DNA of 64,000 nt from Fibrobacter sp. (GTDB lineage: Bacteria; Fibrobacterota; Fibrobacteria; Fibrobacterales; Fibrobacteraceae). Shown here one piece after another: positions 4,995 to 24,889 of the stretch (positions within the stretch are counted from its first letter, which is position 1; every line of letters starts with the position of its first letter). A program made the position numbers and the translations under genes. A model generated the notes under the pieces. That model had not been told where the DNA came from and ran no database searches. It saw only the letters and a program-made list of their open reading frames with translations. Where the stretch lies: positions 1 through 64,000 of the forward strand of contig JAKSIH010000006.1 in assembly GCA_024398935.1 (NCBI GenBank), in the 5' to 3' direction.

Positions 4995-5275
4995 TATTTC
5001 TTGCCTCCAGCAGCTTCAGTCTTACGGTGGCCCTTGAAAGTACGGGTCAGGGAGAATTCACCGAGCTTATGACCGACCATGTTTTCGGTTACATAAACGG
5101 GGATGAACTGCTTGCCGTTATAGACGGAGAAAGTGAGACCGACCATATCGGGAATGATAGTGGAACGGCGGGACCAGGTCTTGATGGCCTGCTTCTTGTC
5201 GGAACCAGCCATTGCCTGGGCTTTGCTGAGAACGTGGGAATCCACGAACGCACCTTTCTTAAGGGATCTGGACAT
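4994..5275 (-). CDS. rpsS: 30S ribosomal protein S19
   Basis: S19 lies in the head of the small subunit next to the A-site finger. The product begins [19 protein letters not shown] and has the conserved [20 protein letters not shown] and [15 protein letters not shown]; 93 residues. It lies between rplB and rplV. Confidence 0.98.
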
Positions 5276-17411: not shown

Positions 17412-19304
17412 TTAGTTAATTCTCATGGGCATCATAAAGAATAAGGCATCGCTTGAGCCAACGGGTTCTACAACGCACACTGTTGTCGGCGAGGTGAATT
17501 TCATCCTCAACGAATCCGTCTTTACCTTGGAAATTACATTTGTCAAAAGGTTAACATCAAAACCTATATCAAATTGTTCTCCGCCATCCTTTGCTGCCTT
17601 GATAGCCACAGAATCGTCGTCAATTGCAACAGATAGCATTCCTTCCTTATAAGAGAGAATGGCTAATCCGAAAGACTCCTTAATTTTCGAGGCGAGCTTT
17701 TGACAGGAAGCTTGTAACTCACTACGATTCACATCAAGGGTGAATGCAAAATCCGCTGGAATTATGCCATCAACATTTGGGTAGGTGAGATCATTCAAAT
17801 AAGCTCTATAGCTAAAGAGATCATTTTCAAAAGCAATGCGTTCCTTGGAAATTTTAATCTTGACTAATTCACCCGGCAAATGATTTCTGACGTAATTCAA
17901 GACACCAGGCAGCAAAACACTGCAGAAATCTTCTTTACAGGATGTCGCCTTAACGAAGGCTTTTCCACCTTGATGTCCATCGCAGCCAACAAAGCACAAC
18001 TCGCCATCTGAAATTTTTAGATAAACACCATGCAAGCCATACCGATCATATTCTTCAGAAATTAAACCTATTACCGAATCAATCGCTTCTTTCAATTCCT
18101 TTACGGAAACTTCAACAGATATGAAAAATTCCTCGTTTAGATAGTCACAGCGCTCATTGAGCTTCCATGACATTATATTGCCTGCAAAATCGCATTTCTC
18201 AAACACATCGTTTATTTTCATCACGTTAGAAACATTCCAACGGGAAATATCGCCATTGAATTTGCTCCCCATGAACATCCCCTGCATATTCGTCACATTG
18301 GAAACGTCCCAGCTGGAGATATCACCATCGAACTTGCTAAAGGCGAACATGTCGCACATATTCGTTACATTGGAAACATCCCAGCGAGAGATATCTCCCT
18401 TGAACTTGCTAAGCTTGAACATGCAACTCATATCCGTCACATTGGAAACATCAATATGGTTCAGGTCACATTTCTTTCCATATTTCGCTATTTCCCTCTC
18501 GATGATTTCCTTCAAATCATCATGGTCCTTAGCCACGATTGTTTCCAAAGATTCTGCTTTTGGGGACTCTTTTTCTACATTGGCTTTCTTTATATTTTCT
18601 TCACTGTTCACCCTGCCACAACAATCGACAGAAACGAATTCGTAACCCTCGTAATTAGAGCCTTCAAAGGTTTTTGCAAAATCGAAGCACGAAAGGTCAT
18701 GGACAAGATCACCGCATTCATCCACTAGATCAATGCCATCGACACACAGCCGGTATTCGCCATTTTCCACTTTATTGTATAGAGATTCGCCGTCATCTTC
18801 AGTAGGCCAAACTTCTACGGGGAAAGACTCTTCTTTTCCGGTATCCTTATTCCTAAGCCTTAAGACGACAGGCTTTTTGCCATCACCGATTAAAGATCCG
18901 TAACAGGAATCAATAGTAAATTTGGTACCATAGACATCGGAATAATAAAAGAAATCTACTACTCTAAATTTGCCGTCTTTAAAGTTCCCTTCCGCATAAA
19001 AATTGCCATTTTCCAGACGGTAATCTGTTAAGTTGATATCACAAGTCGCTTCCATCAGTTCCGGATTTACATCTCTACAGGCCGATTTCAGCCAGTCAAA
19101 CGGCTCACTTTCTGCATCAAAGTCCACATCAGAACCATAGTCATTATCGTAATCCGTATGGATGACATTGTCTTCCAGAACCATCGAATCATTAAACCAG
19201 TCATATTCTTCTTGACAGTAGTCGAAAAGTTTTTGGGCCATGGCATTTGACGGTTTCCCAGTCTTGGTCATGATCTTGATTTCAAAGAAAACTGCAGAGC
19301 TCAT
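17412..19304 (-). CDS. Three-part protein: new N-terminal module, BspA/DUF285 repeats, sliding-clamp domains II-III
   Basis: A 630-residue cytoplasmic protein without signal peptide. Residues 1-228 are a module found three more times in the next gene (markers AQKLFDYCQEEYDWF at 23-37 and KTFEGSNYEGYEF at 211-223). Residues 262-380 are DUF285/BspA leucine-rich repeats with DVSNVTDM and W-DVSNVTNM-MF-SKF-GDIS units of about 24 residues. Residues 393-630 match domains II and III of the DNA polymerase III beta subunit: GVYLKISDGELCFVGCDGHQ aligns with the DnaN segment ending in TDGHR, and the end GFDVNLLTNVISKVK...MMPMRI aligns with the clamp C-terminus. Domain I is not visible. The pocket residues DGH (442-444), Pro516 and MPMR (625-628) that bind partner peptides are kept, while R and L of DGHRL are changed. 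The start at 19304 has AGGGA six bases ahead. Function unknown. Confidence 0.85.
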   Translation of the reverse strand: MSSAVFFEIKIMTKTGKPSNAMAQKLFDYCQEEYDWFNDSMVLEDNVIHTDYDNDYGSDVDFDAESEPFDWLKSACRDVNPELMEATCDINLTDYRLENGNFYAEGNFKDGKFRVVDFFYYSDVYGTKFTIDSCYGSLIGDGKKPVVLRLRNKDTGKEESFPVEVWPTEDDGESLYNKVENGEYRLCVDGIDLVDECGDLVHDLSCFDFAKTFEGSNYEGYEFVSVDCCGRVNSEENIKKANVEKESPKAESLETIVAKDHDDLKEIIEREIAKYGKKCDLNHIDVSNVTDMSCMFKLSKFKGDISRWDVSNVTNMCDMFAFSKFDGDISSWDVSNVTNMQGMFMGSKFNGDISRWNVSNVMKINDVFEKCDFAGNIMSWKLNERCDYLNEEFFISVEVSVKELKEAIDSVIGLISEEYDRYGLHGVYLKISDGELCFVGCDGHQGGKAFVKATSCKEDFCSVLLPGVLNYVRNHLPGELVKIKISKERIAFENDLFSYRAYLNDLTYPNVDGIIPADFAFTLDVNRSELQASCQKLASKIKESFGLAILSYKEGMLSVAIDDDSVAIKAAKDGGEQFDIGFDVNLLTNVISKVKTDSLRMKFTSPTTVCVVEPVGSSDALFFMMPMRIN

Positions 19305-19342
19305 ATTGATTCCCTATTTTGTTAAACACTTTTTGTCTGGAC

Positions 19343-19432
19343 TCAAAATTTTCGGATGAAACAGTTGTGACCATTGCGGTCCAGATATTTGCGGGCTATA
19401 TCTGGAGTTATGTCCACAAGTTCACGCTTCAT
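19343..19432 (-). CDS. Short leader ORF (29 codons) upstream of the clamp-fusion gene
   Basis: The ATG at 19432 opens a frame of 29 codons containing ELVDITPDIARKYLDRNGHN and ending at 19343, 38 bases before the clamp-fusion start. The same peptide, with ELVDIAPDIARSYLDHNGHN, opens the leader ORF of the paralogous gene at 22301. Third-position changes between the two keep the amino acids, which suggests translation. The sequence resembles the start of phage/ParB-like proteins with an I-T-P-E-x-A...N-T-H-N-R-P pattern, so it may be a truncated relic. No Shine-Dalgarno is seen. Confidence 0.4.
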   Translation of the reverse strand: MKRELVDITPDIARKYLDRNGHNCFIRKF

Positions 19433-19465: not shown

Positions 19466-19494
19466 AATATATATCGCGATTTATACTTTGGCAA
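19466..19494 (-). promoter_or_regulatory. Promoter of the clamp-fusion gene
   Basis: TTGCCA (19494-19489), 17 bases, TATATT (19471-19466) on the minus strand. It is a one-base variant of the promoter of the neighbouring module gene (TTGACA, same spacer length and same -10). The transcript would begin near 19459 and carry the leader ORF. Confidence 0.75.
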
Positions 19495-19503
19495 GAAATT
19501 TTT

Positions 19504-19552
19504 CGAGCCCCCCTGGGCCCCTCGGTTACGCTACGCTTCACTCGGGGAACTT
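19504..19552. repeat. Dispersed repeat, family C (CCCCTCGG...ACGCTTCACTCGGGG)
   Basis: A hairpin-forming element with CCCCTCGG and CTCGGGG arms around GTTACGCTACGCTTCA. A second copy lies at 22374-22412 and a degenerate one near 29657. Both main copies sit immediately upstream of the duplicated promoters of this island. Confidence 0.6.
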
Positions 19553-19574: not shown

Positions 19575-22103
19575 CTATCGGTCGATGCCAGGCTGCTCGG
19601 GCTCAGCATCTTTCTGGAAACGAATCCCAATGAACTCATAATCATTAAGTTTGGTTCCCTCGAAGGTTTTCTTAGCGTCCATACGATCAATATTGTGGAT
19701 TCTCTGTCCAGAAGAATCCAACAGGGGAATTTCGTTGTCACAAATTGCTAGACAAATACAACCCTTTCTAACAGAAGATTTAATATCATCCATAAAAGGA
19801 GCCTCTGTTTCATCATCTGAATAGGGCCGAATTTCTACAACCTCCTCACGAGATTCCTGTCCCATCTTAAAGCAAAGAGCAGTTGTGAAAGCTGGATCAC
19901 TAGAGTCCTCGCCTAGCATCAATCCGTAACAGCCCTTATTCCTATAGTAAAACAAGGGGTAGTCATCTTCCCAAAAGTAATCAACTTGACCGGCAATAAA
20001 GTCATCCTTCACGACGAACTTTCCGTTCTCGACAGATGCGACAATGTAACGATGGTCAGAAGCGTAGCCTTCATAATACTCATATTGAGTACATACATTC
20101 ATTTGTGCAGGGTGGAAGTGTTCAAACACTTTCTCCATCCAGGTTATAGGTTCCTCATCAAGGTATTGGTCCTCGCTCTGAAAATTAGAAGCTAGTCTAG
20201 AGTCCGATAGATAAATGGATTCATTCTTGGCGTGTTCACCAAACCAATTAAATTGTTCACAACACCAATCAAAAATCTTTTGGGCAAGCTCGCAATCATC
20301 ATCCCCATTTTCCTTTTTAAAGGTAATATCAATGTTGATTATAAGGGTAGATTCGGTTTCTTCAAATTCGTCATTGAATTCTTCAGCCTCAGATTCTTCT
20401 TGGATTATTTTCTTTGCAGATTTTGCAGGGATTAATGGTTCCACTTTACCAAATTCATACTCAATACCTTCGAAAGTCCAATCCTCATAAATGGTTCCGG
20501 CGAAAGTCCTTTGCACGTCCATGGCCTCAAGCATGGAAACAGGACTGCCTTCGGAATCCAGCAAGGGTATAGCATGATAACCGCCGACTGCTAGGAAAAA
20601 CTCATCATTGATAATGGCATCTTCCGTTTTTACACTGCCACATTCCATTTTTCGTGCTAAGGTATCCTCATCCATTTCTAATGTGGACAGGGGCCAGATT
20701 TCAACAACTTCATAGGCCGTCTGTTCATCCTTTTTTAGGCGAAGGGCTATGTTATGGGGATTTTCCTCTTCCCGAAAATTCTTTACTAATAAGAACGCCT
20801 CTTGTGCGTCAACCAACTGGTAATAATATTCACGTGTTTCACCGGAATCCGTTACACAATCGAACTTTCCGAAGCAGATGTCCATTAACCGGCGAAATCT
20901 ATACGCCGCGGGTAGATCTGGATGGGCTTCTGCGGTAACAATGTAGGAACTGGCTTTATGAGGGTTGCATACGCCATTGTCATCAGTAACATGAACTAAA
21001 TTACGAACACTTAGCTTGTCCGGCTTGAACTGCTTGTAAACATCTATGGTCCAATCGAAAATAATTGAGTCATCTTCAAAGGGGATGCTGAATTCAGAAG
21101 AAACAATCTTATTCCCCTCCAAAACGATCTTACCATCGTTGCAAGCTTCGGCAAACCACGAATATTGTTCCTTGCACCATTTGAACACCTGCTTGGCCAT
21201 CCATGCATCCATGGACAATCCCATTTTTGAGCCTATTGAAACATTGAAGTCAATCCAAACTACACTCATAACCATTGTTTCCTTACACAAATCCGAGCCT
21301 TTTCCCGATTTGTCCCGTTTTAGTTTCGGCATTTCAATTTCGCCATCAGAAGTCCACTGAATGCCTAGAAATTCCATTTTTTCAAATTCTGTACCTTTGA
21401 AAGTCTTTTCAAGATCCATCTTTTCAAAACGATCAATGACACGACCCGCAGCATTGAGCAGGGGAATTTCCGAGTCGCAGATGGTAAGACAGAAATCGTT
21501 GTTAATTACAGCCGATTCAATTTCATCAGCAGCATTTAGCTTTCTGGGCCATAATTCGACAAGTTCCTTTATGATGCGATTGCCATCCTTAAAGCAAAGC
21601 TTCACCATGTCATCGGGTTTATTGCGGAAATTCGTTCCCAACATATATCCATGAAAATCATCCGCTTGATAAGAGAACTGGAAAAAGTCTTTGAATGAAG
21701 GATCCTCATATTCTCCATAACAAAAGTCTCCTTCTAATACAAGTTCTCCATCCTGTACACAAGCTGCAACGAGTCGGAAGCAGGCACTTCCCGGTGTATA
21801 TTCACCGGCTGCGTTGGTGTAGTGATAGACATTTCGGACAATCATCTGTTCTGGATGAAACTCTTCATAGACTTCATTTAGCCAGCCAAGCGGTTTCATT
21901 TCTACAGAATAATCTTCAACGCAGAAATCATTGTCAGAGTATATTTTACCATCTTCTAGGCAAAGCTGTTCGTTTTCAACACCCTCGCCAAACCAGTCAA
22001 AATGTTCCTTGCACCAGTCAAATATTTTTTGGGCAAGTTTTTTGTCCATAGTCTTGTTAGACTTTTTAATTTCTATGCTAAAGTAGCCCCAAGTTGCGCT
22101 CAT
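19575..22103 (-). CDS. Protein with three copies of the island's new module
   Basis: An 842-residue cytoplasmic acidic protein made of three modules of about 250 residues: about 1-251, 278-551 and 584-830. Each opens with a short beta segment (SIEIK, DFNVSI, NIDITF), then a helix with the pattern AQKIFDWCKEHFDWFGE (copy 1), AKQVFKWCKEQYSWF (copy 2), AQKIFDWCCEQFNWFGE (copy 3). Each has W...F.P..M.V in the middle, a VELWP or VEIWP-like strand, IPLLNAAG-type turns and closes with KTFKGTEFEKMEFLGI or a variant. A fourth copy is the N-terminus of the clamp-fusion protein. I recognise no named family, signal peptide or catalytic motif. The start at 22103 has AAAGGA seven bases ahead. Its last codons lie in or near an intergenic repeat, so the C-terminal tail may be recent. 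Confidence 0.75.
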   Translation of the reverse strand: MSATWGYFSIEIKKSNKTMDKKLAQKIFDWCKEHFDWFGEGVENEQLCLEDGKIYSDNDFCVEDYSVEMKPLGWLNEVYEEFHPEQMIVRNVYHYTNAAGEYTPGSACFRLVAACVQDGELVLEGDFCYGEYEDPSFKDFFQFSYQADDFHGYMLGTNFRNKPDDMVKLCFKDGNRIIKELVELWPRKLNAADEIESAVINNDFCLTICDSEIPLLNAAGRVIDRFEKMDLEKTFKGTEFEKMEFLGIQWTSDGEIEMPKLKRDKSGKGSDLCKETMVMSVVWIDFNVSIGSKMGLSMDAWMAKQVFKWCKEQYSWFAEACNDGKIVLEGNKIVSSEFSIPFEDDSIIFDWTIDVYKQFKPDKLSVRNLVHVTDDNGVCNPHKASSYIVTAEAHPDLPAAYRFRRLMDICFGKFDCVTDSGETREYYYQLVDAQEAFLLVKNFREEENPHNIALRLKKDEQTAYEVVEIWPLSTLEMDEDTLARKMECGSVKTEDAIINDEFFLAVGGYHAIPLLDSEGSPVSMLEAMDVQRTFAGTIYEDWTFEGIEYEFGKVEPLIPAKSAKKIIQEESEAEEFNDEFEETESTLIINIDITFKKENGDDDCELAQKIFDWCCEQFNWFGEHAKNESIYLSDSRLASNFQSEDQYLDEEPITWMEKVFEHFHPAQMNVCTQYEYYEGYASDHRYIVASVENGKFVVKDDFIAGQVDYFWEDDYPLFYYRNKGCYGLMLGEDSSDPAFTTALCFKMGQESREEVVEIRPYSDDETEAPFMDDIKSSVRKGCICLAICDNEIPLLDSSGQRIHNIDRMDAKKTFEGTKLNDYEFIGIRFQKDAEPEQPGIDR

Positions 22104-22118
22104 GTTTTAATCCTTTTT

Positions 22119-22301
22119 TCAAAATTCTTTGTGGTTACCCACATTTTTACTGTGCATCCACTTTCTACGACCGCAGAAAGGCGATGCTGACCATTTAAAA
22201 GATTCCCGTACCCAGAATTTTCTGATGGGACGGTTGTGACCATTGTGGTCCAGGTAGCTGCGAGCAATATCTGGAGCTATGTCCACAAGTTCACAATTCA
22301 T
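22119..22301 (-). CDS. Short leader ORF (60 codons) upstream of the three-module gene
   Basis: The first 28 codons match the leader ORF at 19343-19432 (conserved VDIAPDIARSYLDHNGHN, then PIRKF); here the frame continues with WVRESFKW and a basic tail to 22119, 15 bases before the start of the three-module gene. The pattern NGHNRPIRKFWV resembles the NTHNRP..VxRYA start of ParB-like/phage proteins, so this may be a remnant of such a gene used as a leader. Translation coupling to the next gene is possible because its Shine-Dalgarno lies right after the stop. Confidence 0.42.
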   Translation of the reverse strand: MNCELVDIAPDIARSYLDHNGHNRPIRKFWVRESFKWSASPFCGRRKWMHSKNVGNHKEF

Positions 22302-22334: not shown

Positions 22335-22363
22335 AATATATATCGCGATTTATACTTTGTCAA
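22335..22363 (-). promoter_or_regulatory. Promoter of the three-module gene
   Basis: A near-consensus sigma70 promoter on the minus strand: TTGACA (22363-22358), 17 bases, TATATT (22340-22335). The spacer and about 90 bases downstream are almost the same as at 19466-19494, so promoter and leader were duplicated together with the gene. Confidence 0.82.
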
Positions 22364-22373
22364 TAAATTTTTT

Positions 22374-22412
22374 GAACCCCTCGGTTGCGCTACGCTTCAC
22401 TCGGGGGACTTT
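22374..22412. repeat. Dispersed repeat, family C, second copy
   Basis: Same CCCCTCGG...CTCGGGG hairpin as at 19504-19552, with GTTGCGCTACGCTTCA in the loop and a T-run after it on the plus strand. Confidence 0.6.
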
Positions 22413-22420
22413 TTTTGAGG

Positions 22421-22500
22421 GGATTCTATCGCTACGCTCCAGAATGACAGAGGGTCAGGAAGTTCCAGAATGACAGAGGGTCAGGAAGTTCCAGAATGAC
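22421..22500 (+). repeat. Dispersed repeat, family A, with a 26-bp tandem duplication
   Basis: A family A copy (22421-22449) whose end is amplified: the 26-bp unit AGAATGACAGAGGGTCAG plus GAAGTTCC stands at 22441-22466 and 22467-22492, with a third partial unit. This shows how the element grows by tandem copying. Confidence 0.7.
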
Positions 22501-22555: not shown

Positions 22556-24889
22556 TTATTGTTCAGCGAACGCATCTTCGAAAGGAACTTCTTCGAAGCA
22601 GGCGGGGATTTGCGGGATGATGATGCGGGTGGGATCCTTAGTGAATTCTTCCTGATTGAAATAATATCCGAACTCTTTTCTTTTTTGATTTTCCTGCCCT
22701 TCATCTGATTTGTGAGACTCCAATAGATTCTTCACAAAGGGTAGCTGTGAAATACTATCCGGAAGAGGCCCCGAATTCTTCTCCACATAACGGTAGCAAT
22801 GGTAGCTAGTAACGCCGCCTGTAGCCACATTCCTGGAGAATTCAATTTCATTGCAAGGTTTTTCGCTACGTTCCTTTTGCCACTCCTCTATTTTAATGCC
22901 CTTCAACACAACATTAGCCTGGGCATCCTGACCGTTTTCCTTACAGACCATGCGATGGTCCTGAGTAAAGAAAATCATTACTTTTTCTGTTCTGACAAAT
23001 CCCTGAAGCACAAGGTCGTTGCCTATATAGCTACGAGACCTTGAAGGTAAATATGCATAATAAAGGGCAGCCTTTATTTCATCCAGGAATTTCTTGTAGG
23101 GTGCGTTTTTGGTTTTCAGCTTGACCTTTGTGACTTTGCCCTTTTTGTCAAAGGAAAGTTCCGCCTCTACAGACAAGTTAAAGCCATCCTTGTAATGCTT
23201 TTGGAGAACTTGCTGGAGGCGCCAGCCGCAACTGAATTCAATTGCCTTCGCCATGGCATCTCGATACTCAACAATTCCGTTATGGGATTCCTTTGCTTCC
23301 TTTAAATATTTTTTATCGGCAGTGAAATCCTTGACATAAAATTCCATTTTCGGAAGGGACTTGTTCTCGGCGAGCTCCGGGGAAACACCCTCTGTAGAAA
23401 TGTTTTTCTTGCGCAGGTATTCCTGAACGGAAGCGGTATCCCGAAAGCCACCAAAACCATGGAGAGATGCCATGACGGGACCATAGAAAACTGTGTGTTC
23501 AATCAGCTCACCCTTACGGTAGAAATTCATGGAGAGACTTTTACGGAATTGTTCATCAAGAGTCATGCGTACATTGTACGGGTCGTCGGGATATTCCTGC
23601 TCGTATTCAAAGGTGGCGGCAAATTCCAGGAGATCGTTCTTGTCCTTGGTAGCATAGGCCACGCCATTCTGACCGACAATGTTCATGGAATCGACGATAG
23701 CAAGTACCTCCTGCAGGCGCATGGGCTTACCGGGAATGTATTCCAGATTCTTCGCAACCTTTTCTTGATTGCACCACCCGCACTGGGAAACAAGGGCGTA
23801 GCCCCTGGAAGCTTTTAACATCTCGTTTTTCTTGTCGTACTGCACGCCGATAAAGCCGGTGTAGAGTTTCAGGGGAACCGTTCTCCCCATGTAATGCCAT
23901 TGGATATTGACGTCGGTAATTCCCTTGGGCACGGCATCGAATTCCATATTCTTGTCCCAGGATGTACGTTTTTCGAAGTTGTCTTCAAAGTCCGTGGTGT
24001 AAGGGAAAAACTTGGAAATCCATCCGTTGAATTTCGGCGAGCCGCAGCCCTTGGGATCGATTCGCTTGAAAATTTCTTTCCAGAAATCAAGGTTGATGTT
24101 GCCGCTTTGGACGTTGATGAATTCGTCCAGCACCGGGTTCAGTTCGTCGGCCCACCACTTTAAATCCAGGCGGGCGGCAAGCTGATTGTAGGCTTCCTTC
24201 AACTTGATCCAGTCTTCCTTGGTACCCTTGATCTTAATCTTGGGAATGCCACACATGGTATAGACATGGTAGGAATAATATTCTGAAGACACCGCAAGAA
24301 CCATGGAACTGGATACGGTAAAATCCACATTGCTGGTAGTGGAGAATCGAGTCTTCAGAGGCGCACCCGTTTCGGCGGGAAGCTTTTCCTGCAGTCCATC
24401 GAATAGGCCGTTAATGACGGCGGTCCATTCCTTCGGGGAAGATTCAAAAGTCAGGTTGTCGTTCTGAATTTTCACCGTAGTGTCTGCACCAGGACCGACG
24501 AACTTGTCCTTTAAAGAATCCCGATTGACTTTCACGTGAATGCGGATTCCATCCAGAATCATGAGCCAGATGTCATCGGGAGAAATCTCCATGCCGTAAT
24601 GGCTGGCATAGGCCATCGACACCAGACTGAGAAAGTCAGGCTCCTCGGAAAAACCTTCCACGAAAGGACTGGTGGAGTCGGAATAGACCTTCACTAGAAC
24701 GTCGCCGGCATTTTTACCATTTTTCGTTTCCTCAGCAAAATACTCCAGGAAACCACCCTGAGAGACGGGAATCGTTTTCTCGTGGAATGCGGAGTCGCGA
24801 ACATCCTTATTTTCGATAAGGACAAAACTTTCTTGAGAGAATACAGCGCTGGCAAAGAGCAGCAAGCATATAAAAAGACGCCTAACCAT
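22556..24889 (-). CDS. Exported DUF4419 protein
   Basis: A 777-residue protein with signal peptide (MVRRLFICLLLFASAVFSQ). Residues about 85-400 match DUF4419: ISPDDIWLMILDGIRIHVK, the EWTAVINGLFD region, YSYHVYTMCGIPKIKIKGT, EDWIKL and GWISKFFPY. The function of that family is unknown. A later segment (about 555-640; LSVEAELSFDKKGKVTKVKL and YYAYLPSRSR) looks like a TonB/AgmX C-terminal-type fold. The -10 box TATATT ends exactly six bases before the ATG, so the mRNA is probably leaderless. It follows the module genes on the same strand but has its own promoter. Confidence 0.75.
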   Translation of the reverse strand: MVRRLFICLLLFASAVFSQESFVLIENKDVRDSAFHEKTIPVSQGGFLEYFAEETKNGKNAGDVLVKVYSDSTSPFVEGFSEEPDFLSLVSMAYASHYGMEISPDDIWLMILDGIRIHVKVNRDSLKDKFVGPGADTTVKIQNDNLTFESSPKEWTAVINGLFDGLQEKLPAETGAPLKTRFSTTSNVDFTVSSSMVLAVSSEYYSYHVYTMCGIPKIKIKGTKEDWIKLKEAYNQLAARLDLKWWADELNPVLDEFINVQSGNINLDFWKEIFKRIDPKGCGSPKFNGWISKFFPYTTDFEDNFEKRTSWDKNMEFDAVPKGITDVNIQWHYMGRTVPLKLYTGFIGVQYDKKNEMLKASRGYALVSQCGWCNQEKVAKNLEYIPGKPMRLQEVLAIVDSMNIVGQNGVAYATKDKNDLLEFAATFEYEQEYPDDPYNVRMTLDEQFRKSLSMNFYRKGELIEHTVFYGPVMASLHGFGGFRDTASVQEYLRKKNISTEGVSPELAENKSLPKMEFYVKDFTADKKYLKEAKESHNGIVEYRDAMAKAIEFSCGWRLQQVLQKHYKDGFNLSVEAELSFDKKGKVTKVKLKTKNAPYKKFLDEIKAALYYAYLPSRSRSYIGNDLVLQGFVRTEKVMIFFTQDHRMVCKENGQDAQANVVLKGIKIEEWQKERSEKPCNEIEFSRNVATGGVTSYHCYRYVEKNSGPLPDSISQLPFVKNLLESHKSDEGQENQKRKEFGYYFNQEEFTKDPTRIIIPQIPACFEEVPFEDAFAEQ

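Follow-up and report, generated by a model that had tools for sequence, protein, structure and literature searches.

A rare acidic protein module of Fibrobacter adjoins a ParB-like gene and is fused to sliding-clamp domains

Two adjoining minus-strand genes in the window, the 64,000-nt stretch of Fibrobacter DNA analyzed here, encode four divergent copies of a protein module of ~235–285 residues that represents a real, undescribed protein family, found in none of the searched libraries. The module gene adjoins a small gene for a ParB-like protein in two bacterial phyla, and the two form a gene pair. The explanation that we put foremost, although tentatively, is that the acidic module is a partner of the small basic ParB/Srx-superfamily protein, restraining or directing it, and that the pair constitutes a rare mobile two-gene cassette.

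The verified open reading frames encode proteins of 630 aa (17412–19304, minus strand) and 842 aa (19575–22103, minus strand), and the positions of the modules and associated features are given in Table 1. The original prediction of a four-copy module was borne out: each copy was detected by a profile built from the remaining ones (A1, E 1.4e-22; B1, 5.6e-52; B2, 5.0e-31; B3, 1.1e-49), with a top score of 8.1 bits in a control of 200 shuffles per copy. The span proposed for the module, 19575–22103, holds the three copies of the 842-aa protein, but the fourth lies at 18600–19304 in the neighboring gene. Similarly, the helix motif thought to be common to all four, A-x-K-[IVL]-F-x-[WY]-C-x-E-x-[FY]-x-W-F, is exact in A1, B1 and B3, but B2 departs from it, reading AKQVFKWCKEQYSWF at this site. 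An alignment of five module sequences has 17 invariant columns, with 28–39% identity to B1. The source genome, a 2.9-Mb draft of 76 contigs that is 82.6% complete and has Fibrobacter relatives, contains a fifth copy on contig C8, a 272-aa gene that stands alone. The modules are acidic (pI 4.05–4.53, net charge −23 to −42 each), and the whole 842-aa protein has a net charge of −81. The claim that the module is unnamed also stands. No family match was obtained in Pfam, NCBIfam, PHROGs, PADLOC or PDB sequences, which together with the Foldseek searches rules out a known family; PADLOC models run against nine proteins gave nothing at E <= 0.01, and no copy matched a Pfam family of known function, the kind of hit that had been named as counting against novelty.

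Table 1. Modules, fusion domains and upstream elements of the two adjoining genes (window coordinates)
Feature	Position	Strand	Description
Module B1	21339-22103	-	residues 1-255 of 842-aa protein
Module B2	20421-21275	-	residues 277-561 of 842-aa protein
Module B3	19578-20351	-	residues 585-842 of 842-aa protein
Module A1	18600-19304	-	residues 1-235 of 630-aa protein
DUF285 (BspA/PARCEL-type) repeats	18165-18470	-	residues 279-380 of 630-aa protein; PF03382 E 9.5e-29
Sliding-clamp central domain (II), 630-aa protein	17775-18110	-	PF02767 E 8.6e-8
Sliding-clamp C-terminal domain (III), 630-aa protein	17421-17762	-	PF02768 E 1.3e-9; end FFMMPMRIN
Promoter-like site, 842-aa unit	22335-22363	-	TTGACA - 17 nt - TATATT, read from sequence
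Promoter-like site, 630-aa unit	19466-19494	-	TTGCCA - 17 nt - TATATT, read from sequence
Decayed ParB-like gene upstream of 842-aa gene	22112-22298	-	internal deletion and frameshift
Decayed ParB-like gene upstream of 630-aa gene	19319-19432	-	first ~30 codons left; two stops inside
Near-palindrome CCCCTCGGTT[AG]CGCTACGCTTCACTCGGGG, copy 1	22377-22406	.	before promoter
Near-palindrome CCCCTCGGTT[AG]CGCTACGCTTCACTCGGGG, copy 2	19518-19547	.	marks duplicated unit

The module is very rare and not a widespread family. The genome search with a module profile, which had been proposed as a check, recovered intact copies in only two of 168 Fibrobacterota genomes, the source genome and Fibrobacter sp. 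UBA1765 (G165). Genome G106 has a broken module remnant, and in G057 a ParB-like ORF is followed by a weak one. A 4-kb contig filed as Bacteroidales (JAKSMD010000142.1, L021) carries the 630-aa gene at 99.0% nucleotide identity to that of the window. Since this gene is nearly identical and its neighbors are Fibrobacter-type FISUMP genes, the contig is probably wrongly binned Fibrobacter DNA, and Bacteroidales was set aside as its true host. The one homologue found beyond the phylum is a 281-aa protein (WP_002702302.1) encoded by plasmid pTS1 of Treponema saccharophilum. Judging from its sequence, it is a true module homologue (E 1.3e-15 when left out of the profile; hhalign, 97%), which agrees with the expectation that the family is old. 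Near the Treponema module pair (pTS1 419398–423790; L079:24399–28791) are also genes for a DEAD/DEAH helicase, an Eco57I-type methylase and two WYL regulators. A viral origin of the module was rejected: the module, 272-aa, Treponema and clamp queries had no match in IMG/VR, and phage records had none to the 842-aa protein.

The adjacency of the module and ParB-like genes is best seen where both are intact. In UBA1765, an 88-aa ParB-like gene (L019:4731–4997) lies directly before a 547-aa gene, the module of which starts at 5001 after a three-base gap, and a 95-aa ParB-like ORF (L020:4717–5004) overlaps the start of the stand-alone 272-aa module gene (L020:5001–5819). In pTS1, 30 bp separate the module gene from the ParB-like ORF that follows it. 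The module is thus probably part of a small DNA-related cassette. The ParB-like partner has no Pfam match; the protein of L020:4717–5001 matches phrog_5931 (E 6.6e-25), a relative from genome G019 matches the ParB-like phrog_1033 (E 0.0045), and the phage relatives are annotated as ParB-like nuclease domain. The motif NGQHRL or NGLHRL (NG[QL]HRL) is present in the copies of L020, L019, C8, Treponema and G019, and its arginine, presumably the pocket arginine of the family, is lost in the copies of G039 and G106 (SGLQYL and SGLHYL). These similarities place the short ParB-like form of Fibrobacter and Treponema in the ParB/Srx superfamily. The reviewed domains of this superfamily act as NTPases and, for the most part, as non-specific DNases (PMC5512222), and the short form may have such an activity. 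The partner proteins are basic (pI 9.3–9.6), and the contrast with the acidic modules is weak support for a partnership. A ParB-like query matched only nine of 72,556 records in the plasmid search, pTS1 among them. Most phage ParB-like relatives occur without the module, and 12 phage ParB-like loci of IMG/VR scanned with the module profile were all negative and were rejected as module hosts; no ParB-like gene accompanies the B2–B3 gene of UBA1765. A second family of ~89-aa ParB-like ORFs (L023, L025, L026, L028; genomes G039, G106, G053, G035) carries SGL[QH]Y[LV], with a substitution of the motif arginine, and has no module neighbors. Directly before the ParB-like and module pair lies a gene of the uracil-DNA-glycosylase superfamily (L020:3540–4598 and L002:549–1187), with a PF03167 match of E 2.6e-9 in L002 and a longer version in UBA1765.

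Remnants of the same ParB-like gene are found upstream of both window genes. These genes had been credited with almost identical promoters, and the 171 nt upstream of them are indeed 89% identical to each other, but over half of this region is decayed ParB-like gene: the shared ~170 nt comprise a sigma70-type promoter, whose core does not differ between the two copies, and after it the beginning of a ParB-like gene. The remnant upstream of the 842-aa gene gives two matches in different frames, at 67% and 91% identity, to the intact ParB-like protein of UBA1765, and both remnants of the window also aligned at the DNA level. Contig L021 contains such a remnant too. A near-palindrome (Table 1) has two exact copies in the window versus none expected. 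Further upstream of the 842-aa unit, TCCAGAATGACAGAGGGTCAGGAAGT occurs twice as an exact tandem (22438–22489). A gene for a 777-aa DUF4419 protein (22556–24889, minus strand; PF14388 E 2.6e-57) also lies upstream of the module genes; UBA1765 instead carries a DUF4919 gene behind its 547-aa gene. No known RNA families were found at the locus. The shared upstream region thus includes remnants of a ParB-like gene that usually goes with the module, and these point to a DNA-linked role more strongly than does the clamp, which had been taken as a hint of such a role.

The pairing with a clamp is nevertheless genuine. Other fusion partners, which were to be looked for, are DUF285 repeats and a clamp in the 630-aa protein and a clamp in the 547-aa protein of UBA1765, the second case of such a fusion. 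The DUF285 match of the 630-aa protein scores 100 bits versus a cut-off of 25, and both clamp domain matches are over their cut-offs; PDB clamps match the tail over domains II–III, from E 1.2e-15. By comparison with complete DnaN (PF00712/PF02767/PF02768), domain I is absent from both fusions, in which the clamp stands behind the module; in the 630-aa protein, the matches start at clamp residue ~120–160, with DUF285 before them. The fusion clamps are ~44% identical to each other and 21–27% identical to Fibrobacter DnaN. A clamp match is found in 75 of 80 Fibrobacter genomes, one in each except for the source genome, where a second match, the module fusion, adds to a normal 370-aa DnaN encoded on contig C33. 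The 630-aa protein retains part of the peptide pocket (CDGHQGG and MPMRI; reference TDGHRL and MPxRL), which is more altered in the 547-aa protein (CDGRFGG and VPARC). Because domain I is missing and the tail consists of domains II–III only, ring formation is unlikely, and peptide binding appears possible. Upstream of the 630-aa homologue on L021 lies an ORF, open at the contig end, which matches the finger domain of DNA polymerase III alpha (L021:21–803; PF17657 E 5.6e-9) and is a second replisome-like fragment beside a clamp fusion; no match to this DnaE-finger-like protein was obtained in other Fibrobacter, in a search run without a positive control.

Comparison with UBA1765 reveals reshuffling of the array. 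The order there is a 630-aa module–DUF285–clamp gene, a 566-aa B2–B3 gene, the ParB-like gene and the 547-aa B1–clamp gene. The prediction of three copies in a single protein is correct here, but B2–B3 and B1 are separate genes in UBA1765, and the three-module 842-aa protein was found in this assembly only. B2–B3 of the window is 99.6% identical in nucleotide sequence to the separate 566-aa gene, and B1 is 87% identical in amino acid sequence to its counterpart, which is fused to its own clamp; in the window, B1 is in frame with B2–B3, with the junction near residues 270–277, and its own clamp is gone. Because the two clamps are ~44% identical, we infer that the clamp-bearing B1 is the older state; the B1–B2 junction of the window may also be an assembly error. 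Synonymous divergence between the two genomes is 0.009 for B2–B3, 0.07 for the 630-aa gene, 0.27 for the neighboring ahcY and 0.75 for B1, and from this unevenness it follows that parts of the array exchanged DNA after the two genomes parted. The dN/dS ratios, simple Nei-Gojobori estimates from few substitutions of which the direction alone is safe, are 0.05, 0.21 and 0.25 for the A1 module, DUF285 and clamp parts of the 630-aa gene, 0.10 for B1 (at dS 0.75), 0.13 for the 272-aa gene and 0.12 for the two intact ParB-like genes (at dS 0.9). By these estimates the modules are under purifying selection. The ParB-like copy on contig C8 of the source genome, with a ratio of 0.62, few changes and an altered start region, looks to be under relaxed selection.

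These observations can be joined as follows. In the Fibrobacter lineage, the cassette of adjoining module and ParB-like genes was duplicated and the ParB-like gene decayed beside the duplicates, while the modules stayed open under purifying selection; the partner gene became fused with itself, with DUF285 repeats and with a sliding clamp devoid of domain I. We infer that the basic ParB-like protein is a binding target of the acidic module, or one for which module and DNA compete, and that the module in this way restrains its nucleotide- or DNA-directed activity as an immunity or regulatory partner. Module copies without a ParB-like gene of their own would act in trans, and the clamp tail, instead of encircling DNA, would tether the protein to partners that bind clamps. 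Counted against such a partnership are the lack of a PADLOC match, the B2–B3 gene of UBA1765 without a ParB-like gene, the mostly module-free phage relatives and the relaxed-looking C8 copy; also, Foldseek yielded no fold relation of the module to known immunity proteins.

A possible though rather doubtful alternative is that the module is a far-diverged relative of Api92/YubB (DUF1281), known from phages and plasmids, with a ferredoxin-like front half and a small rear domain, serving as a DNA-metabolism accessory of mobile elements. The structure prediction asked for was run on B1 and the 272-aa protein and yielded AF2 models (mean pLDDT 74.6 and 69.8) in which the front half runs beta-alpha-beta-beta-alpha-beta and the rear half is a small alpha/beta unit, but Foldseek against PDB and viral models returned nothing at E <= 0.001. 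The order of strands and helices in the front half is compatible with a ferredoxin-like fold. In G019, the genome of another Fibrobacter, Api92-like proteins take the place of the module in an otherwise equal gene set: this parallel locus (C7, L032:7073–10646) encodes a DUF285 protein, a 315-aa DUF1281_C protein, the ParB-like protein and an Api92-like protein of 147 aa. The rear halves of the module and Api92-like proteins match by hhalign with a score of 30.4 versus at most 19.0 in 100 column shuffles, but the matched stretch is only 40 residues long at a probability of 28–38%. The front halves score 12.5 versus up to 26.1 in shuffles, leaving front-half sequence kinship with Api92 unsupported, the W..NWGTK motif is absent from the module alignments, and PF06924 and PF18406 do not recognize the 842-aa, 272-aa, 566-aa or Treponema proteins at E <= 1. 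Thus, Api92 kinship is a lead, compatible with the acidic-partner reading, and both can be true together. In the G019 array, the ParB-like gene stands between the genes for the 147-aa and 315-aa proteins, and one of its two DUF285 proteins has a Lys/Ala-rich head; another genome (G101:C13; L038, L054) encodes a protein of at least 633 aa with two DUF285 blocks, an Api92-like part and the rear domain of the 315-aa G019 protein.

The remaining explanations concern the role of the module and its clamp. It is unlikely that the modules are lineage-specific paralogs that serve no dedicated system and are shuffled by recombination like FISUMP, with the ParB-like neighbor as a passenger: FISUMP genes do flank the C8, UBA1765 and L021 copies and reshuffling between relatives is heavy, but the pairing recurs in Treponema and both partners appear to be under purifying selection. 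Still less probable is a DNA mimic, anti-restriction or replication-blocking, delivered to the replication fork by the clamp tail. The strong negative charge of the modules, their tandem copies and the location of the pTS1 copy ~2.8 kb from the helicase and Eco57I-type methylase gene would fit such a function; yet many cytosolic proteins are acidic, the AF2 models show no elongated single-fold mimic, and no neighboring restriction system was observed for the Fibrobacter copies. Least credible of all is a working processivity factor, in which the 630-aa and 547-aa proteins would form rings for a mobile replicon. Domains II–III clearly belong to the clamp family, the 630-aa protein retains DGH and MPMRI of the pocket, and the clamp part evolves at a ratio of 0.25, but both fusions lack domain I, which is needed for the beta-dimer interface, pocket residues are changed (DGHQGG; DGRFGG and VPARC in the 547-aa protein) and no replicon genes adjoin.

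The new module family thus sits in a known kind of setting, that of ParB/Srx-associated accessory cassettes. Several divergent acidic-domain copies per polypeptide are known from the tandem polyimmunity proteins of toxin systems, which the 842-aa protein resembles in this respect, although neither a toxin nor a known immunity family turned up here. Small ParB/Srx proteins of phages and plasmids (phrog_5931) are similar to the companion protein of ~90 aa, which has NG[QL]HRL with its arginine and phage and plasmid matches; the phage members seen, however, are ~280 aa long with a C-terminal extension, the companion being a short form. Api92/YubB-like proteins (DUF1281, DUF1281_C) resemble the module in their position next to ParB-like and DUF285 genes in G019, and differ from it as set out above. 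Osa, DdrB-type ParB domains and GmrS are among the reviewed proteins of the ParB/Srx superfamily, and the polyvalent proteins of phages and conjugative elements are likewise multi-domain mosaics with ParB-like domains in mobile conflict settings (PMC5512222); here, by contrast, the ParB-like part is a separate gene on a MAG contig. The same work makes no mention of clamp, DnaN, YubB or DUF1281, and our literature search found no description of the pairing of a ParB-like protein with an acidic module. It is a long shot that the locus represents an undescribed intracellular conflict or control system, in which a ParB/Srx-like effector is held by a cognate acidic partner and duplicated partners are sent to the replication machinery by a truncated clamp tail, with one relative adding the DnaE-finger-like protein.

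The rarity of the module, with intact copies in two of 168 Fibrobacterota genomes, limits its general weight. Nevertheless, a protein family outside all searched libraries is now delimited and, in two phyla, tied to a partner of ParB/Srx type; two natural fusions join it to a sliding clamp without domain I, an arrangement not found in our literature search. As only two small genes are involved, the pair is directly testable.
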